Below the pieces are notes generated by a model. The model made no database searches, was not told where the DNA came from, and worked only from the letters and a program-made list of their open reading frames with translations. Position numbers and translations under genes: made by a program. Of a stretch of DNA of 64,000 nucleotides, positions 27,163 to 62,716 are shown piece by piece; position 1 is the stretch's first letter; each line of letters begins with the position of its first letter. The DNA comes from Phallus indusiatus (Eukaryota; Basidiomycota; Agaricomycetes; Phallales; Phallaceae), in assembly GCA_027605045.1 (NCBI GenBank), contig JAQFWX010000002.1, positions 2,542,001-2,606,000 on the forward strand. The letters are read 5' to 3'.

Positions 27163-27164
27163 TG

Positions 27165-28168: not shown

Positions 28169-28577
28169 CATCATGAACAAATGTTTTCGATGCAACTCAG
28201 TCTTACATAACATCACACAACCATCGGCTCGTTGACATGTGAAAGTGGAAGAATGAATAACGTACCGACTTGATAATTACTGTGGAGCTAAAGAGTAGTA
28301 AGCTGAACTAAAATGAGTAGACGTTGATCCATTGAGATTGAAGGAAGAGGTACTTTGACGGTTAAAGGCTTGTAACAGAGTAAAAAAATTTGCCTTAAAG
28401 GTAGAGAAGGGATCTATATCTCTCAAATGGAAAAGTTTGACCAATTCAACTGTTTTTCCAACAGAATCACGCGTATCAAAGGTCGTGTCGATGTTGTTTA
28501 ACCAACAAACGGACGAAATCTTTCGATGTCCACGTCATCATTATCAGCAGTGATGCATCCAGTTTGTTCAAGGCACA
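28169..28577 (+). repeat. Segmental repeat B, copy 1
   Basis: About 410 bp that recurs in the same orientation at 35669-36077. It directly abuts the truncated 5' end of the TRI5-like pseudogene. No gene is recognised inside. Confidence 0.85.
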
Positions 28578-31752: not shown

Positions 31753-33124
31753 GAGAGTGAGATGAAAGTGAGACAATGGTAAAAAGTTCTGCTCGCCGGA
31801 CGCCGATTGAAAAATTGCACCCGTTCACAGCATAAAATGTGGTGACAATGCATCAGGACTCAAGATTGCAGATCTTCTTGCATTTCGGGTTGTAGCACAT
31901 CTTGTATTGCGAAAAAAAAAACTGTAAATACATGGTCTGTGCAGTGTGTACTGCCGACCGGGTAAAAATTTTCTGCTTCAACGACGTTAGTCATGGCCGT
32001 TTATGATAAAAGATGAAACATACCTAGCTAAGTAACTAACTTCAAATGGTACCAAATAAATAAAAATCTATCTGAAAAAGAAAGTTAGAGAGTCAAGTTT
32101 GAGATGACTAGAATCAAATTGCACATACAAGGTGAAATAGCCATCTACCTAGACAGACATGAGAGACAGATATGAAGGATGTTTTACGAGGGAAGGATGA
32201 TCTAAAATCTCGTGAAAAAATTATAATTCAAACAAAAGGCGTACATTCAATATGGTTGTCGCAGACCCAGAAAAATGCATGTTGATTGTCCGACTACCCG
32301 GCAATGGAAAAATATCTGTGTTTGCAATTCATTAAGTGGATTAAGAAGATAGTAAACTCACAATTCAAAGAAATAAGAAAAAATAACACAAGACATAAGG
32401 CCGTCGGAAATAAGAAAATAAGCCTGTGTGAGCAGCCGAGGTGAGCTTATTATGATGTCCAAACATTGATGTCGCACACAGGATTGAATGGAAGTATCTT
32501 TGATAAATTGAATTATATTTTTTATTTTTAAATACAATAACCTAACAACTGAAGTGAAATCACCAGTATTTTTTCAATAAAATATCATAGCAAGCGATGA
32601 ACAAATGAAAAAACCCACCTGTAGTACTGTACCATAGATTACCACCATTCACTAATAGTAAACTGCTGCAGGAATAAAAAAAGTGCTGGTTGTATGGAGT
32701 ATTGGGCCACATATTGAGCGCAAATGTGAATACTCCTTAAAAAAATGACTGTTGAAGTCGTTAAATCACGCATGCGACCAGTTGGTGGTGAACACGAGGT
32801 GTTGCGACAATGTCACTAAAATCATGGATCGGATGGACAAATAGCAAGTGTCCAATTGATTTTCTTACCGATATAACTGTATTACCACTGCCGACTGAGT
32901 GTGTGATGGCTGGAAATTGTTGAATGATGGGCAAGGTCGTGAAAGGAGGTTTGCTTACGACGCGCGTTTACATAAGGATACTAGGTGATCTCTAGAGTAT
33001 CTCGTTAACAAGCGTCACACGATAATAACACTCAGCGTGTTATATTTTAGCGTTCATAGGGACTTAAAACCCCGCACCGTGGGATAGTCGCTAAAATGTG
33101 AGAAGGGACTGGGCACACTCAGGC
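31753..33124. other. AT-rich gene-poor stretch
   Basis: 1.4 kb without a supported gene, rich in A/T runs. It lies upstream of the recombinase start and may be the remaining non-coding part of the Crypton or an older element. Confidence 0.5.
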
Positions 33125-33292: not shown

Positions 33293-33300
33293 TATAAATT
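33293..33300 (+). promoter_or_regulatory. TATA box of Sulfotransfer_4 gene 1
   Basis: TATAAATT lies 56 bp before the ATG. The same motif is at 46202-46209 in front of the third copy. Confidence 0.5.
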
Positions 33301-33355
33301 CTTGCTATATGATTTCAAGAACTATATCAGCCCCTTTCTACAATCACCGTAAAGG

Positions 33356-34378
33356 ATGGTCTTTACTACTAATCCCGATATTCCTCGTGAAAACCCGGCG
33401 CAACTGAAAGTAATCTCATTGGGACTAGGTCGGACTGGGGTGTGTCTTCTTCAAGCAGCTCACGTCTTGTTATTTATGTACATACAGACTCTCAGTCTTT
33501 GCCACGCATTGGAAATGCTTGGCTTCGGCCCTTGCCATCACCCGCGCGTTACTGATATTAACTGGGGGGATTTCGGTCGGGCTGCGAGAGGTATAGTTCT
33601 TGAAAAAAAAAAAACCATCGTACATATAAGATTTCTCAACTGATCCATCAGACCATTGTTCGCCACAAATTCTTGATAACCTTTATCAGGGATTTGTTTC
33701 GGCTGTAGACAATACTGCAGCAATGCTTGCAGAACCGTTATACAGGACATTTCCTGATGCCAAATATATTCTCGTTTGTTTTTCCTGTTCTATCTGCATA
33801 ATCAACAAGTGTAAGCTTTCATACTATAGACTGTTAGAGATCCCGCTAAATGGGCCGAAAGCATGCGAAACACCATTTTAAAGAATATGGAGAATACCAG
33901 AGCATTAAAGTCAAGACTGGCTGAAGGAACAGCCACGGAAGCGGATAAAAGATTATATGAGACATTGGAAAAGATTGGAATGTTTGAATTTGGTGATGCC
34001 TTGCGAAGTAAGCCGCTTATGTGTTCGATTTTGAGATCGGTGCTGTGTTTTACGATCACTTTCATAGATCCACTTCACAAAGGACTTTTAGAAACAGATC
34101 CAGAAGGTTCTATCATAAGACATAACCAATTCGTTATGGAGATGATTCCACAAGAGAAACTACTGGTTTTTAATGTGGCAGATGGATGGGAACCGCTGGC
34201 AAATTTTTTAGGAGTGTAAGCCATATTGTTAATATCATACTCTCATTCCTTTTTTTAAAAAAAATTTTTTTTTCATAGGCCCGTGCCAAATGAACCTTTT
34301 CCTCGCCTCAATGACTCGGCTGAATATTTAAAGTCTGTGGCCACACAAAAACAAAAATTCCTCGATTCGCATTCGTAG
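33356..34378 (+). CDS. Sulfotransfer_4 family protein, copy 1
   Basis: P-loop protein of the fungal Sulfotransfer_4 family. Members resemble PAPS-dependent sulfotransferases, but few have been tested. Six exons from ATG at 33356 to TAG at 34376-34378. The nucleotide loop LGLGRTG is joined by splicing to TLSLCHALEMLGFGPCHHP. Then come NWGDFGRAAR, SAVDNTAAMLAEPLYRTFPD, TVRDPAKWAESMRNTIL (the 3'-phosphate-binding-like R-D-P motif), GTATEADKRLYETLEKIG, HKGLLETDPEGSIIRHNQF, EKLLVFNVADGWEPLANFLG and the terminal PNEPFPRLNDSAEYLKS. About 255 residues, full length. Near-identical to the copy at 46275. It opens the plus-strand gene cluster. Confidence 0.85.
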
Positions 34379-34780
34379 TAATGCGAGTGATCTCTGTGAC
34401 GCTATTTTCAAGTGTTTAATCATGAACCCACCCAATTTATCTCTTTTGAAAAGGACAAAAGAAGAAAGCTATATAAAAATAGCAGACCGTGACCGCTTTG
34501 AGAACGTTTCGTTCGCTCCATATTTCGCCTACGGGTTTACATATTTCAGTAATGCACTAATGCACTTTACCCGCGGAACAAAACTTTGTACACCTCACTT
34601 TGTCCTATCAGAAGTCTGACCCTTCGATATACCTTCAATGGATCGTAGAAGGTGCAGGATAAGACATGGCCTATGGACTCTTGAATTTGGCTGAAATCGC
34701 CATTTTGAGCGTCGACTGGCTGCCGTCAGCTGTGCTTATAGGCTCATAGCAATTCTGCCACGAAACGCAATATCGGAAAT

Positions 34781-35356
34781 TGACAAGAATGAATGAAAAG
34801 TCATGAAGGTTCTAACCGCTATCGTGGCATATGTAATGAATAACGTGAATACTTTCGTCTGCATCATTCATCAAATGCATCACTTCTCCTGCCGGCGCGC
34901 GTTCACACTGTACACGTGCATCAGCATTTTAAGGCTCTTAGCTGCGTTCTTGAGACTAGTGAAAGCACCTTACCGTTATCCAGTCAGGTATTAGGTCAAA
35001 TAGGTTTAAGGCAGCAAATGAATGAATCTCCTACCCGAGAAGTCTGGCCTCTTTCTTGTATTGGGTGCATCATCCGTATTTTCAATTTCTCTATTTCAAA
35101 CTTAATGTTCCGAATTTCCACTATTGCTGTGAGGAAAGACGGATATAACAAACAATATAGAACTGAGCCTGTAAATCACAAGAATTTTCCTGAATTCAGT
35201 CCAGCTGCTTATCTATTTCGTGAAGATTTGTAAGTAAACCTGTCAGTTCGTTTCAAATAAATTGATGAACGGAAGGTCATGAGAGCTAGATAAGGTTCAA
35301 TTAAGAAAGCAAAATGTGAAAGAAGGAGTCAAAAACTTCTACCAGCTTAGTTCGCG
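34781..35356 (+). repeat. Segmental repeat A, copy 2
   Basis: Second copy of 20119-20702. Here repeats A and B are separated by only about 310 bp of unrelated DNA and no terpene synthase relic. Confidence 0.85.
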
Positions 35357-35668
35357 CGCAGGCACTACGGTTTGAGAGCTTTCACTTCAGTCTAACAATG
35401 AACGTAATGTATAATCGATTAATCACCCTAAAGTTACTTCGGGGAGCTAGGATTTCTTTGTCGCTATTACTCTAAGGACAGTGGCGTGTCCAGGGATGGA
35501 TCCAGAAGAGTCCAACGCACACGGCGTTGAGCAATACGGAGCTACCATCTATTCATAAGCCATGTGACGAAGAGTTCGCCATAATCTAAAACTCCTGTGC
35601 TATACTTCGGGTGGATAAGAGGGAATGGCATCCATTTCAAATATTGTGTCGCCGCACAGTCAACGCGC

Positions 35669-36077
35669 GCATCATGAACAAATGTTTTCGAGATGGATGC
35701 AACTCGGTCTTAACATTCGTACAACCATCAGCTCTATGACATGCGAAAGTGGAAGAATGAATAACGTACCGACTTGATAATTACTGTGAGGCTGAAAAAA
35801 TAGTAAGCTAAACCAAAACCAGTAGACGTTGATTCATCGAGGTTGAAGAGGTACTTTGACCGTCAAAAGGCTTGTAATCAGAGTAAAAAAAAATTCCTTG
35901 AAGGTAGACAAATATTTATATATCCCAAATGGAAAGGTTTGGCTAATTTGATTGTTTTTTCAACAGAACCACGCGTATCAAAGGTCGTGTCGATGTTGGT
36001 TAATCAACAAACGGACAAAATCTTTCGATGTCCACGTCATCATTATTAGCAGTGATGCATCCAGTTTGGTCAAGGTG
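35669..36077 (+). repeat. Segmental repeat B, copy 2
   Basis: Second copy of 28169-28577; the match stops abruptly near 36077. Confidence 0.85.
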
Positions 36078-36096
36078 TAGCATTAAAGCTGCCATA

Positions 36097-36333
36097 TCAA
36101 ACTCGGATTCTTACCGTTGTAAAGTTACTATGTCGTGAAATGTTTGGTGGAATGTAAGCTCTTTGAGCTATTACGTTGCTGAAACAGATGAGGAAGTTGA
36201 ACGCTAGTGAACTTCTGAGCATCAACGTCGTGGATAAACATACTATCAGACTGTTTATGACAGTGTCATTAGAAACAGCGCAACCAGCTTTAATGCGTCT
36301 GAGAACGGAAACAAATAAAGATATTGATCTCAC
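36097..36333 (-). other. Possible relic of a membrane protein (DUF6534-like)
   Basis: A minus-strand open stretch reads RRIKAGCAVSNDTVINSLIV then CLSTTLMLRSS and resembles the segment before the sixth and seventh membrane helices of basidiomycete DUF6534 proteins. No start codon or neighbouring exons were found. It is probably a fragment. Confidence 0.2.
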
Positions 36334-36765
36334 GTTCTAAATCACAATGGAACAAAAGGGCAGTCCATCCAATAAGCGGCGCTCGTTGAATCGGAGCTCG
36401 GGCCCCAGTCGGAGTCGGAACCGAGGCTGAATCATTTTCTCAGTCACGGTGATGCGAGGAGGATAGAACCGAAGAATTGTCGATGCAAAAAAGGATGTTC
36501 TCCAAAGAGCTTCCATTGTTCCTTCAGTCACTTGTGTATGTGCTTAATCGAGTCATATCATCAAATAATTCATGTATGATTCACTCAGATCCGGTGTCTA
36601 CATCCATTCTTTCACCGGGCCCTGTCACGGTGAGTCAGTGACTGCTTTTATAAACGATCTCCGGTCAACGTTAACATCCCATAAAAGTACTTCACGAGAA
36701 AGTATATTTTTCCATATACTCTAACAGAAATTTTCTCTACCTGATTATTCAATAATCGATCAACA

Positions 36766-37782
36766 ATGACTCTTGGTCGTGAAAATCCCGCGCCTTTAAA
36801 GGTCATTGGAGTAGGCTTAGGACGAACCGGGGTGAGTCTCCGAACAAGTGACTCCAATCGATTGGTCGTTGACGTTTTCTCTGGTTGGTAACAGACTCTT
36901 AGTTTGCATACTGCATTGCAGATATTAGGTTTCGGACCATGTCATCATCCTATAATCGAAGGAGTTGACACAGATCAGCTTGTTCGATTCGCGAACGCAA
37001 CAAAAAGTATGTTGGGAAACATGTAATCCTTGCCCCAACGCTATCTCATGCAAATCTTCAGATCCTTCACCAGAGGTTCTTGATGATCTTTATCGCGGTT
37101 ATGTATCAGCAGTTGATGTTACCACCGCGATACTGGCCGAACCATTGTATAAAGCATTCCCCGATGCCAAATTCATTCTCGTCAGTTAATTGTTCTTTGA
37201 CGCGGAGCAGAAGGCTTGAATAATCTTTGACTTGACTATGCAGACGGTTAGAGACCCTAACAAGTGGGTTCAGAGCATGAAAAAGACTACCCTGGTATAC
37301 TTTGCAGAAATCAACGAACTCGAGGCGAGAATTGCTTCTGGGACTGCAACCGAAGAAGATCATGTCAAGTCCAATCGACTGAGAGAACTGGGATCCTTAG
37401 AATGGGGAGAACTGTATCAACGTATGTTTTGGAGATTATAATCATGACCGCATCATCACTGATGGTATTCTCTATGATATAGAAGGTTACCACAAAGGTC
37501 GTTTGGCGACAGACTTAGAGGGAGAATTCTTACGACACAAACAATTCATCACCGAGCTGATTCCTTCAGAAAAGCTACTTATTTTTGATGTCGCAGAAGG
37601 GTGGGGCCCGTTGGCTAAATTTCTAGAAGTGTAAGTTCTGAACAAAATCTTCACAATTTTTTTTTGCTTAACGCGTATATGACAGACCAGAGCCGAAGGA
37701 ACCCATGCCTCGCCTCAACGATACCGCGCAGTTCGAGACGACAACGAAATCATGGTCAGACAAAATTGGTGGTACTGTTTAA
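36766..37782 (+). CDS. Sulfotransfer_4 family protein, copy 2
   Basis: A more diverged paralogue of the copies at 33356 and 46275. Exons begin at ATG 36766 (MTLGRENPAPLKVIGVGLGR), with the P-loop completed by TLSLHTALQILGFGPCHHP after the first intron. Then come EVLDDLYRGYVSAVDVTTAI, LAEPLYKAFPDAKFIL, TVRDPNKWVQSMKKTTL, GTATEEDHVKSNRLRELG, GYHKGRLATDLEGEFLRH, EKLLIFDVAEGWGPLAKFLE, and a tail PEPKEPMPRLNDTAQF ending TAA at 37780-37782. About 265 residues, no lesion seen. All introns have GT/AG borders at the same places as in the paralogues. The substrate is unknown; its position suggests a role in the terpenoid cluster. Confidence 0.85.
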
Positions 37783-38579
37783 TTAGTCGTGCATATCGTT
37801 ATTTGCTACTATGTAAGAGTAACAATCAAGGGCCGAATAAGAGTTTTATACCACCTCAACATATTGAACTATTCTTGATGCTTGAACTGACTCCGCCAAA
37901 CATGCATCCTGGTACGAATCCGAGCTAAATGTACATATCCTCCATGGTCCAAAGTGAGCGCCATAGACCCCTGAACATTACGACAATATATTATTCATTC
38001 AATGACTAGGACGGTGTTATGCAACGCATGACGGCTTTATATAATACCAGTTCTTATGATATTTTCGTCATTGAGAGCCAAATTTTCACGTCCAGGACTC
38101 AACGAGATTCAACTGGTCAAGTTAATCGAAAATAGGTATAAGAGCCGGTGCCTGAGGCTTGGCCCCGGGAGTTTTCATCTCTATGTGGGATCTAATCAGT
38201 ATCCTTAGAATCTGCTACTTCATCGATTTTCCACATGATTTCAGCGAGGATTATTTATCATCAGTAATAAAGAAATCGTTAAGCGGAATCGAAGGGAATC
38301 TACTGTATCCAATTGAGCTCCCTGATTTGGAAGTGTGTCTAATGACGTCATTTCGCCCCCGGAAAATTGCCGGACTGCAAAGGATTGACCAGTGCTATTG
38401 TGTATATACCCCTGTTATACCGCGGACTTATGCAAGCCTTATTTCGGGGTTGAACACGATGATCCTGGCATGGCCGGGATGACCACTGTTTCAAGTATTT
38501 AACTGGACGAATGAAAGCTTGTTCAACAAAAGTCCTTCTTTAATACTTGTTTCTCTTCCCATCGATATCATCGTTGACA
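37783..38579. other. Intergenic, no gene seen
   Basis: Spacer between Sulfotransfer_4 copy 2 and the aldo/keto reductase. An open frame near 38160-38480 lacks an ATG and any recognised motif. Confidence 0.45.
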
Positions 38580-40033
38580 ATGTCTCAGTCCGAAATCCCC
38601 CAAGCTTCATATCGCTACCTTGGTGAATCGGGTTTACGCGTCTCCGTCCCCATCGTATGTATTGATTAGCTGGCTGCTTTGCTTCATTTTCGTTTGTGCT
38701 TAAGATTTGTCTGCCAGCTGGGTGGAATGAGTATTGGTAATCCCAAGTGGAACGTAGGTATATCATTTCATCGAGAGGTTCACAGATATGCTAAAGGGAT
38801 CTCTATAGCCAATGTCGCAGGGCGAAGACACGGTACATTTGTCCTCCTTTGCTCAAAGACTCCTCTCATACTAATGCTGCAAACAGGCGCTGCTACTATT
38901 GAAGGCTGCCTGGGACTGCGGCGTCACAACTTGGGACTTGGCCAACATGTATAGCAATGGTGAATCCGAAAGGCTTGTCGGGAAATTTATAAAGCAGGTA
39001 CGACGGTTGATTACTTTTCGCTCGAATGAAATCGTTCTCATAATTAATGTAGTACAATATTCCTCGCAAAAACCTCGTGTTGATCGACAAATGTCGTTTT
39101 CTTGTAAATCACGAGGATCCAACACATATCACAAGTCTTTGGAATTATGAGCTCAAGAACCATCGCGACTACGTCAACCAGGGAGGATTATCAAGGACAG
39201 CTATACTCAATCAAGTCCAAGACTCTTTGGAAAGACTAGGAACCGACTATCTCGATGTTTTGATGATCCACGGACCAGACATCAGTGTCAAACTGGAAGA
39301 GACAATGAGAGTTCTCAACGAGCTCATTGTTTCGGGGAAGGTCAGATACATTGGTACTTCAAACATGAAGGTTTGGCATATTGCCGAATTGAACGCCATA
39401 GCCGAACGACATGGATGGGCAACAATCTCCTGTGTCCAAATTGAATATTCACTGATATATCGAGCGGAGGTAAGTTCCTCACGTTTATGAGACTTTGTGA
39501 CCGTCTTAGCATCTATCGATTTAGGAAGCCGACATGATTGACTACTGCAAATATAAAGGGATAGGCATTATTGCTTACGGAGTTTTGGCACAAGGATATC
39601 TCGCCCGTCCCATTGGAGTTGAAACCGTCCGGAGTAAATTTTACAAGGACACTCGCGCCGAAATGAAGTTTAGGAAATCCGACCTCGAGATAATTGAACG
39701 TGTCGCCACGGTTGCTGAAAAACGCGGTCTAAAAAGAAGCCAAGTCGCTATTCTCTGGGCTCTCAAAACACTTGTCAGCCCTGTCGTCGGGGTGAACAAC
39801 GTAAGTTCATTGTTTTTGAGTCTCAAAAAGAATAACTAAGGAAACTCATTTTCGTCCAGCCCGATAGATTATTTGAGATAGCGTCTGTCGCTGGAAAGAG
39901 CATCACTGAAGAGGATATCAAGTTCCTGGAAGAACCGTGAGTTCTTTTTAGCTTTTATCTCTTACACTACCTATTGATTTTCGTTAGATACGAGCCTCAA
40001 ATTCTTAAATACTTCCCCCCGGACAACTGGTGA
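38580..40033 (+). CDS. Aldo/keto reductase (aryl-alcohol dehydrogenase type)
   Basis: NADPH-dependent reductase of aldehydes or ketones, cytosolic, TIM-barrel fold. Exons start at ATG 38580 (MSQSEIPQASYRYLGESGLR). Next are LGGMSIGNPKWN and AAWDCGVTTWDLANMYSNGE, which holds the catalytic Asp and Tyr. NLVLIDKCRF carries the Lys position and DYLDVLMIHGPD the His position, so the AKR tetrad is complete. GKVRYIGTSNMKVWHI and SCVQIEYSLIYRAE are typical later motifs. YGVLAQGYLARP and LWALKTLVSPVVGVNN precede a short last exon ending QILKYFPPDNW before TGA. About 340 residues, seven or so exons. One short exon near 38800-38880 is uncertain. In this cluster it could reduce an oxidised terpene carbonyl. 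Confidence 0.88.
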
Positions 40034-40612
40034 TCTGGAGCAGCCTGTTTAATAAGGATACTCGCTCAAATGACTTCTGCGATTATACATTTGCAAAAAC
40101 GGAGCAAGATACTAAGTAATATGTATGTATTGTGTAAATAGTACAAAACATGGTCGGAAGTTGAAATTTGAAATTTGCAAGCTGCGCGAGACGCCGCAAT
40201 TGACCGTGAGACATATAACAAGCGTAATTCATTTTTCATCCCAAAACGCCGTGTCAAACAATGAAAGAGAAAGCTAGCTCACTATTTGGAAATCTTACTT
40301 TACACAGCATTCTTTCCAGCCTGATAACAATCGTTCGTTAAAGCTGTTTTCAACGGTTTAATCGATTCATTCTGTCATTTTTTTGCCGGTGTCGTTCTGG
40401 CCAGAGATGATCGTATGCCCTCCGTTCCTCTACGGATCTCATGATCTCAAATTTCTTTTGAGATATGCATGCGCATGCGGCCATCGCCGCATTCGCAAAA
40501 CACCGCGGCGTTACAATTTTGTTCGTGGAGAGTATTCAAGTGCCCAGCTTATTGTATGAGCCTACGTATAAATCTTTAGAAGTCCCTCTGCATCAGAGTG
40601 CTTTTCTATTTC
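40034..40612. other. Intergenic promoter region of the glycosyltransferase
   Basis: No gene seen. TATAAAT at 40567-40573 lies 40 bp before the glycosyltransferase ATG. Confidence 0.5.
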
Positions 40613-42701
40613 ATGATGCCAAGCAGTGACAGCGAGATTACATGTCATATTCTGATAACTGTCTTTCAATCATGGGGTAAGATATATTCACATTTCAGCA
40701 AGACACTCATCTAAATCATCTGTTAGGTCACTATAAAACTGCCATCGGCTTCGCATGCAAGCTCCTTCAAGAATGTCCTAGTGGTCTCTTGATAACCTTT
40801 CTCAGCGCTGGAAAGCATACCGATCTTGCCGAAATAGAAGCGGAAAACAATTTCATTCACAGAGATACGTCTTCCAAACGGAATCTTCGGTGAGCACCTA
40901 TCCTATCAATAAGTCCAGAGGTGCTATATACAGAGGTAGTTTCGTCCATCTAGGTGGTCAAGGCACGTCATTTATGGACTTGAGCGTATGCCTTCTCCAA
41001 AACTTTCCGTCTCTTTGCGAAATCTTGTTTTCTCCCGGAAAGTCAATCGAATCGCTCGATGGGCTGGTCTACATCAATCCGCGCAAACCGGATGTCTTCA
41101 TTTGCGACGTAAATTGACTACAATTTTGTTCATTTATTCTTTATCACTAAAATTTACCATCTACTAGATATTTTCTCTTGACCTATGCAAAACCTTTCGA
41201 GAGTCTCCAGGCTGTACCGCTTCAGTATTAACGTGGATATCTTCTGGAATTGGGGCCTCTTTGCAAGTTATGGGGCCCGAAGCATTAGGAGGACCAGGAG
41301 ATGTTCCAGCTAAGGCTAAATTACTGGCTGCCGAAAGTGGTGGAAAACCCTCTGAGATAGAGATGGAGGTAATGTTTTCTGTACCTATTATCCTGTATTA
41401 TATTTAACAGATATGCTGGGTCTACAGTTGTACAGGCCCACGAAAGGAGATGTTCACCATCTTTTTGGGGGAATTAACAGGTATGATTATGAGCAGTTTC
41501 CGCAAGGCCATAATATAGATGTATGTCCGGATTTACTTACCGTTCGTATCTTTTGAAATGACCTGCTTTGTTAAGCCTATCTTTCCTCTGCTGGTTCATG
41601 TTTATAATCAAGCTCATCGGTTGGTTTAATTTTAAGAATTGACCCTGAATTCTGGTGATAATTTTACCACTTTCATAGAATGTTCATGGATACCGATGGA
41701 TTGTTAATCGCAAGTAACACTGTTTTCGAACCAGAAGCCATTGAGGCCTGCAAAAAGTGGTGCGACGAAAGGGGGAAATCCTGTTATGCTGTTGGCCCGT
41801 TTACGGTTGAAGTTGACCAATTAGAAACTATGCAATTGCTATCCATAAAATCCAGTGATATGGCTGCTAGAACAATCAATTTCATGGATCAAGTATATGC
41901 AAGTCATGGCGCGCAATCTTTGCTTTTTGTAGGTGTAGATGTCACTGCACTGCATTCTCATTGACTTTGATAAATCATTGTTAGTTCTCATTTGGAACAA
42001 TCTATTCGCCAAACGCACAAAGTCTGTTCGCCTTTCTTAGAGTCATTCTGGATTTAAATATCCCTCTGGTACGTAAAATCTTTCATTCTTCTGTCTCACA
42101 ATCAGTGTATAAACGGCATGGTTGCAGCTGTTTCTACACGAGCCAACGCGCCACGGAGAATTACCTCTTGAATTGAAAGCCGATCTAGATGCGTCTAACA
42201 TTGTCCATGTTTGCGCATGGGCATCTCAGGAACTAGTGCTTAGCCATAAAGCTACTGGATGGTTTTTGACACATTGTGGTTTGGGCGGCATAGCAGAAAC
42301 TATCTATCATGGCGTTCCTATGTAAGCGCCCCTAAAAAAACGCTCATCGCTGACGACGGATGCAAACCTTTTTCAGGATAGCATGGCCTATTCATAGCGA
42401 TCAACCCTATCAGGCGGCATATTGCGCGTTGAAGCTCGGAATCGCATACGAGCTATTAGAGGTAAGAATAATAGAAGGTTTGCGGCCACTTTACAGAGGC
42501 GTTACACCTACCGGGACCACCGAAGCTATCATCGAAGAAGCTCGTACTGTTTTAAAGAATGCTTTTGGCGAAGATGGTAAAACGAAACGAATTAACGTGG
42601 AGAAGCTGAGAGAAAAGATGAGGCTATTGTCGAAAGAAGGCGGTGATTCATTAGAGGACGCGAGGAGATTCATCTCGAAATACGTTCCAACAATGGCATG
42701 A
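40613..42701 (+). CDS. UDP-glycosyltransferase (GT1 family)
   Basis: Transfers a sugar from a UDP-sugar to a small lipophilic acceptor. ATG at 40613 starts MMPSSDSEITCHILITVFQS and, after a short intron, GHYKTAIGFACKLLQE, the usual G-H-x opening near the acceptor site. Middle exons include SGIGASLQVMGPEALGGPGD and FMDTDGLLIASNTVFEPEAI then CYAVGPFTVE. The donor-binding motif near the C-terminus is WASQELVLSHKATGWF followed by THCGLGGIAETIYHGVPMI and AWPIHSDQPYQAAY, with the conserved His, the HCG and the terminal D-Q pair. Stop at 42699-42701. About 500 residues over eight or more exons. Same strand as and about 580 bp after the aldo/keto reductase. Confidence 0.88.
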
Positions 42702-44271
42702 GTTGGTTTTTTTCTGTTCCTCGCACTCAATTACAAGGATAATTCAACTACGTCCGCGATTTGATCTAATTAATCCCTATATCATATGCGATAGATTACC
42801 GGAAGAGGGAAATCCACCTAACTGGCCGTCCATAAGCTCGATAAACTTTGAATATCAGAGTTCCCCTCAACACTCCAGAGTGAGCTCGTACTCTGTCTTA
42901 AGATGGGATCTTGGTTGATTTACATTATCATGAGGTATATGACCCTAAATCTCCCCACTCGACGCGTTAGTGAGGTACTAGTAAGTCATATTAAACTGAC
43001 CTAAGCTTTCCTATCACACGTAAAACTTTATACACATGAATTGATACCTTCACGTCGTTATTCCCATCGAGTAACAACCTGAAACGCTTGGAAGCTACAA
43101 GCTGTATATCATGATGAGCTGACATCGCGAACCAATTTAAAGACGGGATGGTGAGAGTCTTAAGGTACGATTGACTAACGCTAGTCTCAGACTAATTGAC
43201 GACGGAGCTACTAATTTATCGGATATGAAAATGGAAAAGAATAGAAGTTTATGAGGAAACTACTACTCAGGACCAGTGAATCAGGTATCTTGAGAGTCCA
43301 GACTTTTAATTGTTATATAATCTCAGACTTAGCTTTTTTGATGAGGAAGTAGTCCTCATCAAGAGCGTAGCATATATTGAGTAAAGAGATGCGTCGCTAG
43401 ATGGAAATGGTAAATATTTGTTCGGAGATACGGCATTTAGCCGATACAAGCACATTTGTCCGAGCTTCTCTAATTGAGTTACATCCTGCTTGATCATATC
43501 CAACCGAAGTCCATGTGGCCATGGGGCGTTTCTAAGTTTGGTAAATCCACGTGCAACCTTATTCAAAAACGATTAACTCCGTTTTGCCTCTTTTGACGCC
43601 CGTAAAGTGAGATCCTCTTATTTCTGAATTCACTGATGCACTTTACTACTGACATTCCTCGAGGCACCTTTCCGCGATAGTAATGGAATTTCAATCGGGG
43701 GCGCTAAACTTCTACTGTTAGCACTAAGTCACTCGGAGCAGACGGGATTCGTTTCTAAGTAATGACTCGCCAAGGCGTTATTGACAAAGCGAATGAGCAT
43801 AGTAATAATTACATTAATATCGAAACACCGATCACCGGTGATAATAAACTCGACAACGGATCTCTTCTGATCGTAATTCGAGCCGTTGTTCATGAGCATC
43901 TGTAACAGAAGTAGCCAGAAGAGAGCATGGTGAACCAAAGTTATATATTTACAGCATAAAATTGAGTTGCCAACGACCAAATGACTCATGGGAGCAGTTC
44001 GTGATCTCACGCAGCGGCGATGCCGCCACTAGAGGCCGCATCACAAAAGCCAGAGACTCCGAACCAACGCGCGAGCACTAGTTTTGGCACAAACTAGCTC
44101 CGTTAGCCCTCGTTCTTTTCCCCGAGGTGTGATTTTTAATGACGTATCTTTTGATCTATATTGCCAGGGGGAGGGGTATTTAAGTCCCTTGTTGACTGCA
44201 TATCGGGTAGACTAAACAAGCTGAGAAGGTATTCCCAGTCTTCCAGAGTGTCATCTCACCTTCAACTCCAA
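42702..44271. other. Intergenic, no gene assigned
   Basis: A minus-strand open stretch near 43306-43566 is coding-like (RLDMIKQDVTQLEKLGQMCL) but has no ATG and no known relative, so it was not called. A TATTTAA box near 44177 probably serves the next gene. Confidence 0.4.
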
Positions 44272-45535
44272 ATGCAAGAGCAATCTTCGACGCTGAATGA
44301 TTTTCAATCCTCTCCGTTATGTGGTGATTTTCCAAATGGCTATCAGGCCGGTATGTTGTCCTTCCATATCCTGACTCGCCCCACGATAATGATCACCGGA
44401 TAATAAGATCGTGTTGCATGCATTGTGAAAAAATTTCTAAAGGATATGGAATTCGTTCCTACGGGAATCAACCCTACGAACAAAGCCGTAGAGGATTATA
44501 TGGAGAGTCTGATGTATAATCGAGGAATAGAATGTGATCGACTCAAAAGTACAATTAATTTGGCGGCATCCCTCGTTGAAGTAAGCAAACATGAACATTA
44601 AATCTTAATTGCTTAACCTAATTCTTCAATTAGATTGGTTATCATCATTGCACTTTAGACGAGAAAAGAAATCTCTCATTGTTTAACTGGTACGAGCATG
44701 TATTTGATTCAGTTTTTGTGAAAGAGAGGTATGACACTTTATATGATAGGTTCGCTCTCTATTCAGATGATAGCATTCGCAAAAACCCTGTTCCATTCAG
44801 TGAATTTGGCTCGCGACTCCTGCGACGGCAGCCTCAATTAGACCCCGTTCTAACCATATATACTGAAGTGTTGGACCGCATGTGGGACTTTTACGATCCT
44901 ATTGCTGCCAGTACGATTCTCAATCAAACCCTCAATTTCCTCACGGCAAGTTGTATCGAACCTGAATTGGAAAAGATTTCAATGAAAGATGGCATTGAGC
45001 GTTTTCCATGGTATATGCGTGACCTGACTGGTCTTTCAGTCGGGTTTGCGTTATTTGGATTCGTCAAGAGTGGAAACTTCGACATCATGCAAGTCGTTCA
45101 AGCTTTACCTGATATGAATTTCTGGATTTGTGTCAGCAACGATCTACTATCGTAAGCTCGACCTTATGAGTTATTACTCAATACTTACAAAAATTGGTAT
45201 TATAATAGGTTTCATAAAGAAGAGCTGGCAAACGAAACAGGGACATATATCGATAATCGCGCCAGAAACGAAAACAAATCACGATACGAAATTTGCGTGG
45301 ATATTGTCGCTGAACTGAGGCAAGCGAGAGAGAACATCTATGCGATATTAGCTGATAATCCTGCCGCAATGAAGACGTGGAAAACCCTCGAGATAGGATA
45401 TGTGTAAGTCATTCGCATAGATCAATTTCATCCTTCTCGGTTCTTACGCCTTCTATAGCGAATGGCATCTATGGCAGGATCAACGGTACCGTTTAAAGGA
45501 TCTGGGTATTTCATTATCTTCGTGTGGGCTTTAAC
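44272..45535 (+). CDS. Trichodiene-synthase-like (TRI5-like) sesquiterpene synthase A
   Basis: Predicted class I terpene cyclase of the TRI5 superfamily, acting on farnesyl diphosphate; the product is unknown. Six exons from ATG at 44272 (MQEQSSTLNDFQSSPLCGDF) to TAA at 45533-45535, about 330 residues. Exon 2 has FLKDMEFVPTGINPTNKAVE. An intron after LFNW joins to FALYSDDSIRKNP, the first metal motif. It keeps the DDS but has no Asp at the fifth position. IPELEKIS-like and FPWYMRDLTGLSVGFALFGF stretches follow. The NSE/DTE triad is NDLLS joined across an intron to FHKEE. The last exons read LADNPAAMKTWKTLEIGYV and EWHLWQDQRYRLKDLG; the W-H-L...R-Y-R-L pattern is a TRI5 hallmark. The next gene downstream, 740 bp on, is a Sulfotransfer_4 gene. 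Confidence 0.9.
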
Positions 45536-46274
45536 ATTATAAACTACTTCTCTTAATGTATAACCTATAATTTCATTAATCTAACAAACAGAATGTTGTT
45601 ATATAATACATGTGCCCTGTGAACACCGAATGCTTAACGAATTTGAGATGTTACTCTTCGACCAATGACAAGCAGGATCTCGGCCGCTTTTCCGCCGTTC
45701 TCATATGTATATCTCCTTTCACCTCTATTCCTTGAAGTTTGCAAGGTTTCCTGGAAGCAATTAGGTTCTTTTCAAACCAACAAAATTATTCCTCTATCAG
45801 AGTGTGAATTAAGTCAAAAATCAAAGACTTCTATTCTTTCAATGAGGCAATGCCACGGCCTGTACATACTAGTAGCTTCGTATGTGGTTGATGGCAGGAC
45901 TCCCGGCAGGAGGAAAAGTGCGCAAAATGCCGAAACTACGTCACAACCTTTCGTCACGCTGGCAACTCTCCACTCATTTTCTCAAGCTCAACGAACCAGC
46001 GTCTGTTCCACTTGAATGAGCCCAACCCTCGAAACCCGAGGCTTTATATACATCTTTGCGGCAGTTGAGGCGTTTTTGTCGCAGTGAACGCCGGATGTTT
46101 CACGTGTATCACGGACAAATATACCCTCGAGGTATGTCATTAAGCCAGGTTTGGATGCCCGTATGCCGAAGGCATGAATCATTGTAAAGTGCACGAAATT
46201 CTATAAATTCTTGCCATCTGATTTCAACGATCATATCAGCTCATATCAGCTTCTTTTTACATTTAGCTTAAAAG
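45536..46274. other. Intergenic, no gene seen
   Basis: Spacer between TRI5-like A and Sulfotransfer_4 copy 3. TATAAATT at 46202-46209 is the likely promoter box of the latter. Confidence 0.5.
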
Positions 46275-47670
46275 ATGGGCTTTACTACTAATCCTGATAT
46301 TCCTCGTGAAAACCCGGCGCAACTGAAAGTAATCTCATTGGGACTAGGTCGGACTGGGGTGTGTCTTCTTCAAGCAGTTCACGTCTTGTTACTTATGTAC
46401 ATACAGACTCTCAGTCTTTGCCACGCGTTGGAAACGCTTGGCTTCGGCCCTTGCCATCATCCGCTTGTTGCTGTTGCTGATATCAACTGGGGCGATTTCG
46501 GTCGGGCTGCGAGAGGTATGGTTCCCGAAAAAACCTACATACAAGATTTCTCAGCTGGTTCTTTGTTCCAATAGACCATTGTTCGCCACAAATTCTTGAT
46601 AACCTTTATCAGGGATATGTCTCGGCTGTAGACAATACTGCAGCAATGCTTGCAGAACCGTTATACAGGACATTTCCTGATGCCAAATATATTCTTGTTT
46701 GTTTTTCTTGTTATATCCGTCTAATCAACAAGAGTAAACTTTCATACTGTAGACCGTTAGGGATCCCGCTAAATGGACCGAAAGTATGCGAAACACGATT
46801 TTAAGGAATGTGGAGGATACCAGAGCAATTAAGTCAAAACTGGCTGAGGGAACCGCCACGGAAGCGGATAAAAGGATATTTGAGAAATTGGAAAAGGTGG
46901 GAATGTTTGAATATGATGATGCCTTCCGAAGTAAGCCGCTTATGTGTTCAATGTTGAGATCGGTGCTGTGTTTTACGATCACTTTCACAGATACGCTTCA
47001 CAAAGGACTTTTAGAAACAGATACAGAAGGTGCTATCATAAGACATAACCAATTCGTTATGGAGATGATTCCGCAAGAGAAACTGTTGGTTTTCAATGTG
47101 GCAGAGGGATGGGAACCGCTGGCAAATTTTTTAGGAGTGTAAGCCATATTGTTAATATCATACTCCCATTCCTTTTTTAATAAAAATTATCATAGGCCCG
47201 TGCCAAACGAACCTTTTCCCCGCCTCAATGAGTCGGCTGAATTTTTAAAGTCTGTGGCCGCACAAAAAGAAAAAAATTAATGATTCGCATACATGATAAT
47301 GCGAGTATCTCTATGTGACGCTATTTTCAAGTGTTTCTTCATGAATCTTCCCAATCTATCTTCTTGAAAAGGAAGAAGAAAGCTATATTAAAATAGCAGA
47401 CCGTGACCGCTTCGAGAACGTTTCGTTTGCTCGATATTCGGCCTACGGGTTTATCTCGGTCATGGACTTCACCCACGGAATAAAACTTTGTACACCTCAA
47501 TCTGTCCTATCAAAAGTCTGACCCTTCAATATACCTTCAATGGATCGTAGGAGGCGCAGGATAAGATATAGCCTACGGACTCTTGAATTAGGCTGAAAAG
47601 GTCATTTTGAGCTTCGACTTGGCTGCCACCGTCAGCTGTGCTCATAGCAATTCCGCCAAGAAATGTAATA
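46201..47670 (+). repeat. Segmental duplication C, copy 2
   Basis: Second copy of 33292-34775, including the gene and 3' flank. Confidence 0.9.
46275..47280 (+). CDS. Sulfotransfer_4 family protein, copy 3
   Basis: Near-identical to the gene at 33356, with the same six exons. ATG at 46275 gives MGFTTNPDIPRENPAQLKVI then SLGLGRTG; later exons read TLSLCHALETLGFGPCHHP, HCSPQILDNLYQGYVSAVD, TVRDPAKWTESMRNTIL, GTATEADKRIFEKLEKVG, HKGLLETDTEGAIIRHNQ, EKLLVFNVAEGWEPLANFLG and PNEPFPRLNESAEFLKS before TAA at 47278-47280. Two extra codons after HHP distinguish it from copy 1. Compared with copy 1 the reading frame is kept at every indel, so both look functional. It lies directly after TRI5-like A, and with it forms a two-gene unit that appears again at 48591-51793. 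Confidence 0.87.
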
Positions 47671-48590
47671 TTGGAAATTTGTCTATTATATGAAATCAAC
47701 ACGAAACTAGTAGATTGCTGTGGACCACATTCGAACGTAGATGTAATATGAACGACTTCTCAGTTAATTCTCAAAATCACGGGCCGCTCTTAGTTTGTAC
47801 GGCCGATAGCTTTCTCAGGGCTCATTGCCATCCTAAGCCAGTGACTTCTCATACACCTCGTGTCGAACCGAGCCAATGACAGCTTATGTCTCCCCTGCGA
47901 CAGCAAACCAGGGTTATTTTGCACACACACCCCAAAATGTTAAACAAACCCGTCATGACCTATATATAGTGAATAATGAAAACAACAAAATTTTTAAATC
48001 TCACTCCAATTACGTCAACCCTAACTTGAGGGCCAAGAGGCTCATTTGAAGTCGAGGATTCGGACTTCTCCTCGGTCACCGGTCACCGTCCACTGTTACT
48101 GAGTCTTGACACACAATTCCCCACCCTCTCAAAGCAGCGCAGAAAAAGAGCACTACGTTGGCATCACATTTTGAAGAGAAATATTACTCGGCAATTGATT
48201 TCGACCGATTGTAGAAAGCCCCGTCCGAGTCTCTCAAGCTATGACGAAAACTAATGTCCGATATCTAATAGATCGGAGCGATTCGAATAGAAGGACGGTG
48301 TTAGCGTCTTAACAATTTCAAACGTAAGCCCTGAAAACTCGGCACTGGTAAGCAGTTTTGATACTGACAACTGTGATACGAAATCGGTATACCTATCATT
48401 CCATATCACCGCCTCGTCATGACACTTAGTCCTGGCACCGAAAGACCTTCACCTGGCTTCTATTGCAGTATAATATATCAAACCCTGACGGACCTTGATT
48501 TTACTAAGTGTGTATTTAAACCACTTGTTGACCGTGTATCTTGAAAACACAACAAACTTCGAATAATCCCCCCTTCCCCTATAATCACAA
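47671..48590. other. Intergenic promoter region of TRI5-like B
   Basis: No gene seen. GTATTTAAACC near 48512 is TATA-like and lies about 80 bp before the ATG. Confidence 0.45.
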
Positions 48591-49852
48591 ATGACAGAGA
48601 AAACTTGGAAGCCCGTTGATTTTCATTCCTCCTCTTCTCCGGGCCTCTTTCCAGATGACTATCAAGCAGGTATGCTGTACATCATCAATGTCTTAGACCT
48701 TGCATGAGCTGATTCCTATCCGCACGGACCGCAATCAAGAACGAGTTGTATCCATCTTGAACACATTCCTAAGAGATATGGACTTTGTTCCCATGGGTAT
48801 CAACCCTTCGAATAAGGCGGTTGAAGACTATATGGAGAATCTAATGTATGAACACGGAATACAATGTAAAAAATTAAAAAGCACCATTCACTTAGCGGCT
48901 TCCCTTATTGAGGTAAGCCAAAATTCACTTTCGTAGACCTTCCCTCGCTCTAGTCTTGTAAAATAGCTCGGATATAATAAGTGTACCGTAGACGAGAAAC
49001 GAAATCTGGCATTATTTAATTGGTAAGGAAATTAATTTGTATGCGGTCAATATATGTTGACATCGTTCGGTTATGACAACATCTAGGTTTGCCATCTATA
49101 TAGATGATAGCATTCCTAAAGACCCAACTCCCTATCGTGAATTTAACTCGCGAGTTTTTAAACGTCAACCACAACTAGATCCTGTTCTTAACATATTTGC
49201 CGAAGTACTCAATCGCATGTGGGAATTCTATGATCCTGTGGCTGCCACTTTTATTCTCAACCAAACTTTCAACTTCCTCACTGCAAGTTGTATCGAACAA
49301 GAGTTGCCGAAGATTCCAATGAAACACGGCATCGACCGTTTCCCTTGGTTTATACGCGATCTAACCGGTCTTTCCGTTGGTTTCTCTTTGTTTGTATTCG
49401 TCAAGAGTGGAAATTACGACATAATGAAAGTCGTCCAAGCTTTCCCCGACATGAATTACTGGGTTGCTGTGACGAACGACCTATTATCGTAAGTTCACAA
49501 AATGTAACTCAATTGATTTGGAATCACGTACGACGATTACAGGTTTCATAAAGAGGAGGTCGGGGGCGAAAAGGGAACCTACATTTATAATCGTGCCCAG
49601 AATGATAACAAATCACGATACGAAACCTGCTCAGAAATTGTGGCTGAGCTGAAACAAGCGAGAGAGAACGTTCACGCGATATTAGCGGATAATCCTGCTG
49701 CATTAGAGGTATGGAAGATGTGGGAAATAGGATATGTGTACGTTGTTTCATTTCTTCTTTCCCATTGAGAGTCCTTATGATGCCACAATAGCGAATGGCA
49801 CCTCGCTCAAAACCAACGGTATCATTTGGAGGATATTGGCTTCATATTATAA
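48591..49852 (+). CDS. Trichodiene-synthase-like (TRI5-like) sesquiterpene synthase B
   Basis: Paralogue of the gene at 44272 with the same six-exon layout. ATG at 48591 gives MTEKTWKPVDFHSSSSPGLF; exon 2 reads NTFLRDMDFVPMGINPSNKA and YEHGIQCKKLKSTIHLAAS. The first metal motif is FAIYIDDSIPKDP. QPQLDPVLNIFAEVLNRMWE, IPMKHGIDRFPWFIRDLTGL and the split NSE triad NDLLS/FHKEE follow. The end reads LADNPAALEVWKMWEIGYV and EWHLAQNQRYHLEDIG, stop TAA at 49850-49852. About 320 residues. Intron 1 is slightly longer than in gene A; the acceptor after cgcaatcaag restores the frame. Metal motif spacing is unusual in the same way as in gene A, so the trait is shared and not an error. A broken Sulfotransfer_4 gene begins 300 bp downstream. 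Confidence 0.9.
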
Positions 49853-50147
49853 ATGGAAACTTTGCATAATGTATATTAGAACGATTGTGTACTTCATCAC
49901 ACCAGTATTACAAGTATCAGTCATGTCGACTAGGTAATTATATGACAGCTGGATCGATCAGGATGATAGATTCAAGTTGTACCGAATAGATACTCAATAA
50001 ACCTCTGTTTTATCACATAAAATAAAGGTGTCCCGTATCTTAATTCAGTAGATATTCCTTGTCATCGCTGCGGAATGACTTTGAAAAGGGTTGGGAACTT
50101 GGGAGCTTGGGATGCCAATGTCATTAACGTCTTACAAACAAATTAGG

Positions 50148-51793
50148 ATAACGGGGAATAGACAGTTATTGCACTGGGGCTGGGACGAACTAGGGGTCGG
50201 CACCGTACCCGTATTACGGCGCCGTATCCGTTACGAACGAGGGTGTCACTGATTCACCCGTATGCCGAAGAACGACTTTTGGTATACGGATACGGCCGTA
50301 CCGTTTACGGCCGTATTGGCCGTATATACGGTTTATACGGATTATTTGCCTGACATGGGGCAAATACTGATAGAACCCTAATATTTTTGGTTTAAATGCA
50401 TTTAAAACTTGTCTATTAAGTATGGACAGCAACTATATGCAAAATCTACTCTATTGGCACTGATTTACACAAATTTCCCAACTGGCTTCAGCTTCCGGCG
50501 TCTTTGTGGCTTATGTCATTATTTGACGCCCAATGTGACATGCGTGATATTTGGTTCCTTCAAGGCCTGAAGGCTTCAACTAGGCTGGGAAAATGGCGTA
50601 GACGAGCTCAAAATATCTCAAAATCACTTGAGAGATCTTAAAATGTGTATATGTACTGTTATCATTCAATATATCACATCTATTCGACTTTTAGCAAACC
50701 GTATACCGTATATGCCGTAATACGGTGTATACGGTCTGTATACGTTCCGATGGAGCTCGGAGTTAGCTGTTATACGGCATGGATACGGTACGGCAATGTC
50801 CGTATTGGTGCCGTATTTTATACGGCCGTAGCGTATACGGTACGGTGCCGACCCCTAGGACGAACAGGAGTATCTCATATCAAGATTTCCTGAGTGGCGA
50901 ATACCGTTGCTGATCATTCTACAGACTCTCAGTCTCTGCCATGCGTTAGAGAAGTTAGGCTTTGGACCTTGCCATCATCTTTTTGTTGGTTTTAAATCAG
51001 TTGATTGGGGCGGATTTGCGAAAGCTTCAAAAAGTATACCGAACTGATAATTAGGAATTAAAAAATATTAAATTAGGAGCTAGAGAATCCCTCTCCATAA
51101 GTTTTAAACAAGCTTTATGGAGGATACGTCTCGGCGGTGGATAATCGTGCGGCGATGCTAGCAGAGCCATTGTATAAGGCATATCCGAATGCCAAATTTA
51201 TTCTAGTCGGTCTTTTACTATCTGAAATTGAAAATATGAAGTATATATTAACTTCAGCTCAACAGACGGTCAGAGACCCTGTCAAATGGGCCGAGAGTAT
51301 GCGGAATACTATTCTAACAGGTCAGGCAGAGCTCAAAGGAACACGTTCCAGGCTTGCTGCGGGAACAGCCACAGAAGCAGATAAGGCAGTATACGATAAT
51401 ATAATGAGAGTTGAATTCTTAGAATGGAACGACACCTTTTTTGGTAAGTTCTATAAACAAGCCCGTGATCATCTTCACGAATAGAGCTGTCATGTTATTA
51501 GATGACTTTCACAAAGGTTTGCTGGAGGACGATCCAGAAGGAGCGATACTAAGACATAATCAATTTGTCATGCAACTGATTCCTCCTGAGAAATTGCTGA
51601 TTTTCGACGTAGCGGAGGGATGGGCCCCGCTAGCCAAGTTTTAAGCCGTGTAAGTGTCTCAGAAACCGCTGTTTGAACGTCTATAATTCCGTCTTTTATC
51701 GCCTATCATTCTAGGCCTGAACCGAATGAATCTTTCCCTCGCCTCAATGAATCAACCAAGTTCACAGAGAACAGACGTGAAATGTGGATGTAA
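50148..51793 (+). pseudogene. Sulfotransfer_4 pseudogene, copy 4, interrupted by a hAT element
   Basis: Exon order of the family is still visible: VIALGLGRTG (split by the element), LSLCHALEKLGFGPCHH, AVDNRAAMLAEPLYKAYPNA, TVRDPVKWAESMRNTIL, GTATEADKAVYDNIM, HKGLLEDDPEGAILRHNQF, EKLLIFDVAEGWAPLAKF and PEPNESFPRLNES, stop near 51791. Lesions: no start codon where others have ATG, a TAG four codons before the P-loop, a 667 bp insertion inside the P-loop codons, and a stop in place of Leu after LAKF. It sits directly behind TRI5-like B, mirroring the A/copy 3 pair. Confidence 0.88.
50191..50857. mobile_element. hAT-type miniature inverted-repeat element
   Basis: 667 bp with perfect 19 bp terminal inverted repeats, TAGGGGTCGGCACCGTACC at the left and its complement at the right. 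It is flanked by the 8 bp target duplication GGACGAAC (50183-50190 and 50858-50865). An 8 bp duplication and TAGGG-type ends are typical of hAT transposons. The subterminal 150 bp at both ends are packed with CCGTAT/ATACGG motifs, probable transposase-binding sites. There is no transposase gene, so it depends on a helper element elsewhere. Confidence 0.93.
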
Positions 51794-53188
51794 CTTGTTT
51801 TCCCGTACTAGTACTTTCCTTATCACGTCTTTGCTTTTCTGTAAGACAACATCAATAAAAAGAAAAGAGGAGAAAAAAGAATCAGAGTTTGTTCCATTGC
51901 CTCATTACGAAAATAGATTGACAACGTAACACACGCAATTCAGGTAGAGAAAGAAAACAAAAATGAAGCGGCGCGTGAGGATTATTATGCCTAGGCATAT
52001 CCCGCACTTGTAGACGCAGGATTCGATTCGAAGACTTCTGATTTTTGATTTATGCGTTTTTCCCACTGCGCTTCGGCGCCCGACATCCTCAAATCTGATT
52101 TTACCAATCCTGAAGCCTGAACTCCTCCGGATTATGGTTTTACAAGCTCGATATGACATTGACGTACTATAATTCTGGGTATTACATAAAAGTAGCTCGA
52201 AAATGCTGTTGACGAATAATTGCGCATATATCAATCTGTGCAGTGTCATTTTCTTGTCAGATTCGCATAACATCATTAACAACTGGAATCCATTCATTGC
52301 CACTGAAGATGTTGTCACACCAAATCGAGGGGGAAAATAAAACTATATGCTGTGGACGACGTAGCCAATTAGTGCTACCGTAGTACTAGTCTCGTGTAGC
52401 TTGTATGATTAGCACGGCCCTAGATTCGTAAAACAACGGAGAGGTGGCCGTCGAGAACCTAATTGATGAGTGAGAAGACATCTTAGTCGATAATTTGACA
52501 GGGAATCTCTTATCTAGTTCGGTATATTCGATGACGATAAGCACGATATATGCTGTAACCGCCCTTGATGAAGAACGATACAGTCTGAAAACGAGATGTA
52601 TGCTAACCTGACACACCATATTAGTATCCACATTAGTGAAATCTGTCACCATGATACAACCAAACTCTCTATTCGCTAGTCTTAGAGCTCCTAAATGAGT
52701 TCCCTGACCATCAATTTCGAAGAGGGACAGACACGTGTGTAATAGCCGGGAGGGAAATTCACCGTAACGATGCCCATATGCCCGAAAATTTACCCCATCT
52801 TAGACCGTAACTTAATTAAAGGGAGTAGTTAGAGCATCAAAACATTCACACGTCAAAGGGACAACAATCTATACCGTACAGCAAGGATCAAAGGACAAAA
52901 GGGGAGGGTCAACTTGAACGTGGGGACCAGTATGGTCTCAGAGGAAACCCGAAGTATGCCCGTTATATCAAAATAGCAGATCATGAAACGACGGCATATA
53001 AATGCGGAAATTGTTGTAAAACGACTAGACCATATAGCACAGGGAAATAAAAACCCTAGTCCGAGGGGAATGTGATCGCCCCTTCAACGTTCTAACATTC
53101 ACGGGCGTTATCGTAGAAGTAATTAGTGCACACACTGAGTCCTGACCGAGTCTTTTTTTCCGACGATAACCCCGCGTAGCTTAAAACA
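51794..53188. other. Gene-poor stretch
   Basis: No supported gene. A minus-strand open frame at 52386-52652 starts with ATG but shows no recognised family. Confidence 0.4.
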
Positions 53189-53523
53189 ATTGCATTGAGA
53201 TTGGGCAGAGCAGGGTCGGTTGTGTGTTCACAGTGTTCCTCATTTGATAGGTACGACGAAGGACAAATACATTACCCTTGCTGCTTGCTGATCAAGTCTT
53301 AGTCTCCGTCATGCATTAGGAAAGTTGTGTTTTAAACCCTGCCATCATACGAAGGTATCTCCATTTCGCGAGAAATTGCTGGTTTTTGAATGTATTTAGC
53401 AAAGGCTTCAGAGACCCCTCAACTCTCTTCATCATACCAGACCCCAAAAACAAATGAACCTTTCGAACTCCATCAAATCGAGGAATAAGTTCTTCGAGAC
53501 AAACTGGATGTAATTCGACTTAA
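53189..53523 (+). pseudogene. Sulfotransfer_4 relic, copy 5
   Basis: Fragments in the right order: a P-loop relic (ALRLGRAG-like codons, 53189-53214), then a LSLRHALGKLCF-like stretch followed by the CHH codons (53294-53348), then an EKLLVF relic near 53378, and a terminal stretch matching the last exon of copy 4 up to TAA at 53521-53523. Most of the middle exons are deleted. It marks the right edge of the cluster. Confidence 0.7.
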
Positions 53524-62697: not shown

Positions 62698-62716
62698 TCC
62701 TCCATGTGAAGTGATC

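Follow-up and report, generated by a model that had tools for sequence, protein, structure and literature searches.

Does the close linkage of terpene synthase and sulfotransferase genes in a mushroom genome reflect one biosynthetic pathway, or two expanding gene families that share a chromosomal address? We asked this of a 64,000-nucleotide stretch of the Phallus indusiatus genome (contig JAQFWX010000002.1, G000:C111:2542001-2606000 in our index; hereafter the window), in which two TRI5-family sesquiterpene synthase genes (TS1 and TS2) are interspersed with Sulfotransfer_4 sulfotransferase (ST) genes. From the distribution of the two families elsewhere, the available transcripts, and the history of the locus, we infer with modest confidence that two locally duplicating families share one transposon-rich locus and that the neighborhood is not one obligatory pathway.

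A sequence-only reading had listed two TRI5-like genes, an aldo/keto reductase (AKR) gene, a UDP-glycosyltransferase (UGT) gene, and three intact plus two broken Sulfotransfer_4 genes, all on one strand, and our gene models and Pfam searches confirmed this content. The genes lie on the plus strand between 33.3 and 53.5 kb, in the order STA, STB, AKR, UGT, TS1, STC, TS2, broken STD, and fragment STE:

33356-34378, plus strand: STA, intact Sulfotransfer_4 gene, 6 exons, 244 aa (gene model and Pfam)
36766-37782, plus strand: STB, intact Sulfotransfer_4 gene, 6 exons, 239 aa (spliced transcript P0032)
38580-40033, plus strand: AKR gene (model without internal stop; Pfam)
40613-42701, plus strand: UGT gene (C-terminal half clear, N-terminal half modeled by eye)
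44272-45534, plus strand: TS1, intact TRI5-family sesquiterpene synthase gene, 326 aa (SDDSI, NDLLSFHKEE, RY)
46275-47280, plus strand: STC, intact Sulfotransfer_4 gene, 241 aa (spliced transcript P0152)
48591-49852, plus strand: TS2, intact TRI5-family sesquiterpene synthase gene, 321 aa (IDDSI, NDLLSFHKEE, RY)
about 50165-51772, plus strand: STD, broken Sulfotransfer_4 gene (interrupted close to the phosphosulfate loop by a hAT-like element; two stops)
about 53123-53360, plus strand: STE, broken Sulfotransfer_4 fragment

The intact ST and TS genes each have six exons, five GT-AG introns of 48 to 70 bases, and no internal stops, and the UGT model is likewise free of them. The part of STD left of its insert and the UGT start were read by eye.

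To place this linkage in context, we located both families in the 67.22-Mb, 206-contig assembly. After exon matches were merged by eye, TRI5 occupied 19 places in 13 arrays, the 63 ST matches fell into 32 places in 21 arrays, and UGT gave 15 exon matches in 9 arrays. The assembly probably contains portions of both haplotypes of a dikaryon, and these gene-family counts may be inflated; many near-identical paired loci on different contigs are seen genome-wide (among them C34/C157, C2/C150, and C1/C45). No Sulfotransfer_4 match lies within 20 kb of any of the 12 remaining TRI5 arrays: 10 have no ST match on their contig, and in 2 the nearest ST lies at 303 and 453 kb. The stretches around the TRI5 pair on contig C161 and the TRI5 gene on C127, and the 10 kb between the TRI5 pair on C67, contain no ST, AKR, or heme motif, and the genome-wide UGT list has no entry near the TRI5 genes of these three contigs. 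We also found a second array, with four intact Sulfotransfer_4 genes (C127:334000-343999, L045), and no TRI5 gene in the 10 kb fetched there. Under random placement, the probability that an ST neighbors at least one TRI5 array somewhere by chance is 0.065 at 5 kb, 0.10 at 10 kb, and 0.17 at 20 kb.

The sequence-only reading had also proposed a search for TRI5 and Sulfotransfer_4 genes lying together in other genomes. In the stinkhorn Clathrus columnatus, the TRI5 genes Clacol_010256 and Clacol_010257 are neighbors by number on a 2.63-Mb contig. The close STs among the best 120 matches per search are Clacol_003406/13/14/22/23/27, whose contig measures 3.40 Mb, and 009419, whose contig measures 2.76 Mb. 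Because these contigs differ in size, the TRI5 pair and the listed STs are on separate contigs, though a more divergent ST beside that pair could escape such a list. A biosynthetic gene cluster (BGC) would be expected to hold a cyclase and tailoring genes close together, as this locus does, and to keep that co-location in relatives or at paralogous loci, which we saw neither among the matches listed for Clathrus nor at the 12 other TRI5 arrays. The gene content, intactness, and enzyme classes behind the earlier proposal stand. That proposal had named the lack of the two families together in any other genome as an outcome that would count against it, and at the loci compared here its single sesquiterpenoid pathway loses ground on this point.

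Transcript data lean in the same direction. The STB model is identical to database protein P0032 over its full length (239/239 residues), and the STC model matches P0152 at 219/220. These proteins are uninterrupted readings on short contigs (the longest of 981 and 1,348 bases, respectively), and the genomic copies need five introns; we read the source contigs as cDNA, and we take the source tag "lgn" to denote Logan assemblies. Since P0032 and P0152 equal the STB and STC models across all five introns, both splice models are confirmed. Genes on C127 are matched as well, two STs of the four-gene array by P0033 (262/262 residues) and P0036 (252/252) and the TRI5 gene by P0001 (318/318). No TS1 or TS2 transcript was found in a database search with TS2, in which the closest match listed was 67% identical and fragments below 0.55 of the query length were not candidates; this covers TS1 because TS1 is 69% identical to TS2, while nothing above 67% was listed. 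The ST searches of the database gave no separate STA transcript. On the co-expression that the sequence-only reading had asked about, the searches with TS and ST sequences gave transcripts for STB and STC and none for TS1, TS2, or STA. These data lean away from one pathway.

The DNA around the genes records how the locus grew and decayed. The following features bear on this history:

20983-21322 and 27601-28146, minus strand: pieces of a third, broken TRI5 gene left of STA, an addition to the earlier inventory
21339-27553, minus strand: Ty3/gypsy-type retrotransposon between the pieces of the broken TRI5 gene (type read by eye from its open reading frames [ORFs])
33293-34781, plus strand: duplicated segment, STA with flanks, 86% identical to 46202-47679
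34781-36075, plus strand: STA-STB spacer, two parts of which match the flanks of the broken TRI5 gene (20118-20701 and 28168-28573) at 85% identity
50191-50857, plus strand: hAT-like nonautonomous element inside STD (19-nt terminal inverted repeats, 8-bp target duplication)

The identity of the two segments, flanks included, marks STC as a duplicate of STA. The two long terminal repeats of the Ty3/gypsy-type element are 98.5% identical. STD is split by a 667-bp element whose 19-nt inverted ends are identical and which is flanked on both sides by the 8-bp duplication GGACGAAC (by eye); the target duplication and terminal inverted repeats make this insert hAT-like, and near-full-length copies, 89 to 97% identical, are present on several other contigs. 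The history of the locus is one of birth-and-death evolution of both families amid abundant transposons.

We next consider what the enzymes would do. TS1 and TS2 score 67.3 and 72.5 bits against the TRI5 Pfam profile (gathering cut-off, 25.2) and keep the Asp-rich motif, the NSE motif, and the terminal RY in an alignment of 21 sequences, where N233, D234, S237, E241, R187, and R193 are invariant and the Asp pair at 109-110 is kept in at least 90%. Judged by sequence, both proteins belong to the TRI5 type (clade IV) of class I sesquiterpene synthases. The solved structures nearest to them by sequence, which share the TRI5 profile, both motifs, and the RY pair, are longiborneol synthase CLM1 (E value of 3.3e-22 for TS2), SydA, and trichodiene synthase. 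A structure model built for the paralogue P0001 (67% identical to TS2) has a predicted local distance difference test score (pLDDT) of 90.9 and resembles the same three proteins in fold, with template modeling (TM) scores of 0.82 to 0.85 to SydA and CLM1; it is distant in sequence, with 23 to 26% identity to SydA and CLM1 and 16 to 18% to trichodiene synthase. In the TRI5 tree, TS2 clusters with the C161 and C67 genes (support, 100/100) and TS1 branches beside them (89/83), whereas the two Clathrus genes form a separate duplicate pair (100/100). Altered Asp-rich motifs (YIEDN and YIDGD) were seen in TRI5 paralogues L018-L021 on C161 and C67, one of whose models lacks the Asp pair; this perhaps reflects changed metal binding or splice-model error. 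TRI5-type synthases are ordinary in fungi, where 1,435 of 5,605 candidates overall are clade 4 candidates with PF06330, and in basidiomycetes genes often stand in tandem (25.4% of the "STC genes" in that paper's sense, which is not our gene STC), according to the available text of one survey (PMC10210940).

TS1 and TS2 would most likely ionize farnesyl diphosphate with Mg2+, isomerize it to nerolidyl diphosphate, and close C1 to C6 to give the bisabolyl cation. This cation would then yield cuparane- or zizaene-type hydrocarbons, with finishing oxidases encoded elsewhere. Epi-isozizaene is a product of the bisabolyl cation, and eudesmanes would need another cyclase type. Available portions of papers on this mushroom (as D. 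indusiata) report albaflavenone, an antsorane, and eudesmane dictyophorines (PMC6966625, PMC10052543, PMC11767163), as well as 5-hydroxy- and 9,10-dihydroxy-albaflavenone and a rearranged cuparane (PMC10052543). In Streptomyces, albaflavenone is described as deriving from epi-isozizaene (PMC6966625, PMC11767163), and 1,6-closure is reportedly favored by mushroom clade IV/V enzymes (PMC10608071). Because of this bisabolyl route and the 1,6-closure preference, the TRI5 genes of the genome, at any of the 19 places, are natural candidates for the cyclase that makes compounds of the albaflavenone and cuparane types, whether or not the genes of the window form one pathway.

The three intact STs match the Sulfotransfer_4 profile (PF17784) at 167 to 179 bits (cut-off, 22.8), covering positions 1-214 or 1-215 of 215, and each has the phosphosulfate-binding loop GLGRTGTLSL. 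Residue D78 of STB, the Asp of GYVSAVD, is conserved in at least 90% of an alignment of 40 sequences and lines up with Asp91 of SmSULT once a two-residue numbering offset is fixed by Pro16. In the accessible text of a study of SmSULT, Asp91 holds the substrate hydroxyl in simulations (PMC12414012). The solved proteins nearest to STB and STC by sequence are Cpz8 of caprazamycin synthesis, SgdX2, and Schistosoma sulfotransferases, among them the Schistosoma mansoni SULT-OR; a model of STB, the same protein as P0032 (pLDDT, 94.0), has its best fold match in Cpz8 with adenosine 3',5'-bisphosphate (PAP) bound, followed by SgdX2 and a Schistosoma sulfotransferase. From sequence and model, the STs are predicted to be small-molecule sulfotransferases dependent on 3'-phosphoadenosine 5'-phosphosulfate (PAPS), which would move sulfate from PAPS onto a small-molecule hydroxyl, with the GYVSAVD Asp as the likely base. 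SgdX2 and SULT-OR are activating sulfotransferases, in which sulfate serves as a leaving group. Unlike these relatives and Cpz8, the STs described here are fungal and multicopy. FgSULT1 of Fusarium graminearum, a phenolic sulfotransferase, is likewise fungal and acts on natural products, but its substrates are polyketide-derived phenols (PMC11026467, in part).

In a tree of 23 ST sequences, STA and STC group with what can be read of STD (100/99), and a wider clade of 13 sequences (100/99) adds STB, the genes on C127, and seven genes of Clathrus. The expansions of the TRI5 and ST families are thus largely lineage-specific. The ratio of nonsynonymous to synonymous substitution rates (dN/dS) is 0.14 for TS1/TS2 and 0.35 for STA/STC, indicating purifying selection in both pairs, and dS is saturated for ST pairs involving STB. 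Because catalytic residues are kept and the measurable pairs are under purifying selection, the TS and ST genes look like maintained enzymes rather than relics.

How, then, are the maintained genes of the two families related? They could belong to a real BGC in which TS1 and TS2 make the skeleton, an unlinked cytochrome P450 hydroxylates it, AKR acts on a carbonyl, and the STs and UGT conjugate the product to sulfated and/or glycosylated sesquiterpenoids. Cyclases, AKR, UGT, and STs do lie on one strand within 20 kb in models without internal stops; UGTs are so few in the genome that a TRI5, ST, and UGT triple is rare; two bacterial relatives of the STs, Cpz8 and SgdX2, stem from natural-product work; and hydroxylated sesquiterpenoids are reported from the mushroom (PMC10052543, in part). 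Such a pathway nevertheless has to accommodate the missing linkage at the other TRI5 arrays and, among the matches listed, in Clathrus, as well as transcripts found for STs and not for the two cyclases. The available text of three chemical papers on D. indusiata mentions no sulfated or glycosylated terpenoid (PMC6966625, PMC10052543, PMC11767163). The pathway would also have to do without a local P450: the sequence-only reading had noted that none is present, and in agreement a strict heme-motif scan of the window plus 10 kb on either side (84 kb) was empty, although a diverged motif could escape it, and a genome-wide P450 search, with 92 of 655 candidates scored, listed none in the window. 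Basidiomycete sesquiterpene clusters such as the protoilludene-derived ones likewise join a cyclase to nearby tailoring genes, but protoilludene-type clusters carry P450s, whereas here no P450 was found and the tailoring genes present encode ST, UGT, and AKR enzymes. We regard one pathway as doubtful, and the genes are probably unrelated neighbors, of whatever function. In a working pathway, the STs might sulfonate hydroxylated 1,6-type sesquiterpenes (e.g., cuparane alcohols or hydroxy-albaflavenone), whether to form end products or, by analogy with the activating sulfotransferases, to supply a leaving group for a further rearrangement, but this is unlikely. It is quite unlikely that the STs, and possibly the UGT, serve general detoxification of phenols or alcohols from decaying wood or bamboo litter beside unrelated cyclases: the large ST family (32 places in 21 arrays, some of them probably counted twice because of haplotypes), the array away from TRI5, and a Schistosoma relative that sulfates a drug (PMC12414012, in part) would suit this role, but lineage-specific expansion would also suit specialized metabolism.

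Two families side by side fits the evidence at least as well as a single sulfated-terpene pathway. Several observations nevertheless pull the other way. One ST gene, STC, sits between the two cyclase genes, and the spacer that separates STA from STB shares homology with the sequences flanking the broken TRI5 gene, so segments carrying both families may have been duplicated together. With 13 arrays placed at random, only 2.7e-4 triples of TRI5, ST, and UGT within 10 kb would be expected; the families were picked post hoc, and we estimate that this rarity becomes a few per cent given a dozen possible tailoring families. The absence of TS1 and TS2 transcripts from one database search is no proof of silence, and STA is likewise without a transcript.

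If the genes did form one pathway, sulfation would join the tailoring of mushroom sesquiterpenoids and would hint at unknown polar metabolites in an edible stinkhorn; ST action on sesquiterpenes, if true, would constitute a sulfation-based tailoring route for fungal sesquiterpenoids. If they do not, the locus serves as a caution that two families, each expanding in tandem, can mimic a gene cluster.

Three further searches returned negatives. No 6- to 8-mer was common to the five promoter groups, and shuffles averaged no more than 0.5, so this comparison is uninformative. No allele was found for the cluster or for its flanks; because the flanks lack an allele match too, hemizygosity, or presence in one nucleus, is not inferable. 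Among the open-license papers listed, none joined Sulfotransfer_4 with both other cluster terms, a result that does not exclude pairs of these terms in other papers.

The two remaining genes of the locus also match Pfam profiles. AKR matches PF00248 at 219 bits, its nearest solved relatives include MtmW and perakine reductase, and an Asp-Tyr-Lys-His tetrad, which we take to be the catalytic motif, is visible by eye. UGT matches PF00201 at 46 to 48 bits. About 22 kb left of STA, a methyltransferase-like ORF (below the cut-off) adjoins a 2-oxoglutarate (2OG)-Fe(II) oxygenase gene (9106-11198). On the minus strand at 59945-60740 there are short-chain dehydrogenase-like exons with a TGGGTGIG motif, the single scanned ORF of which gave no Pfam match. 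The minus strand at 29702-31824 carries ORFs that look, by eye, like those of a tyrosine-recombinase (Crypton-like) element and that gave no Pfam match. The window also contains an inverted repeat (1-2064 and 15659-17757, 79% identical) and, at its right edge, a direct repeat of about 600 bases (62716-63327 and 63398-64000, 90% identical).

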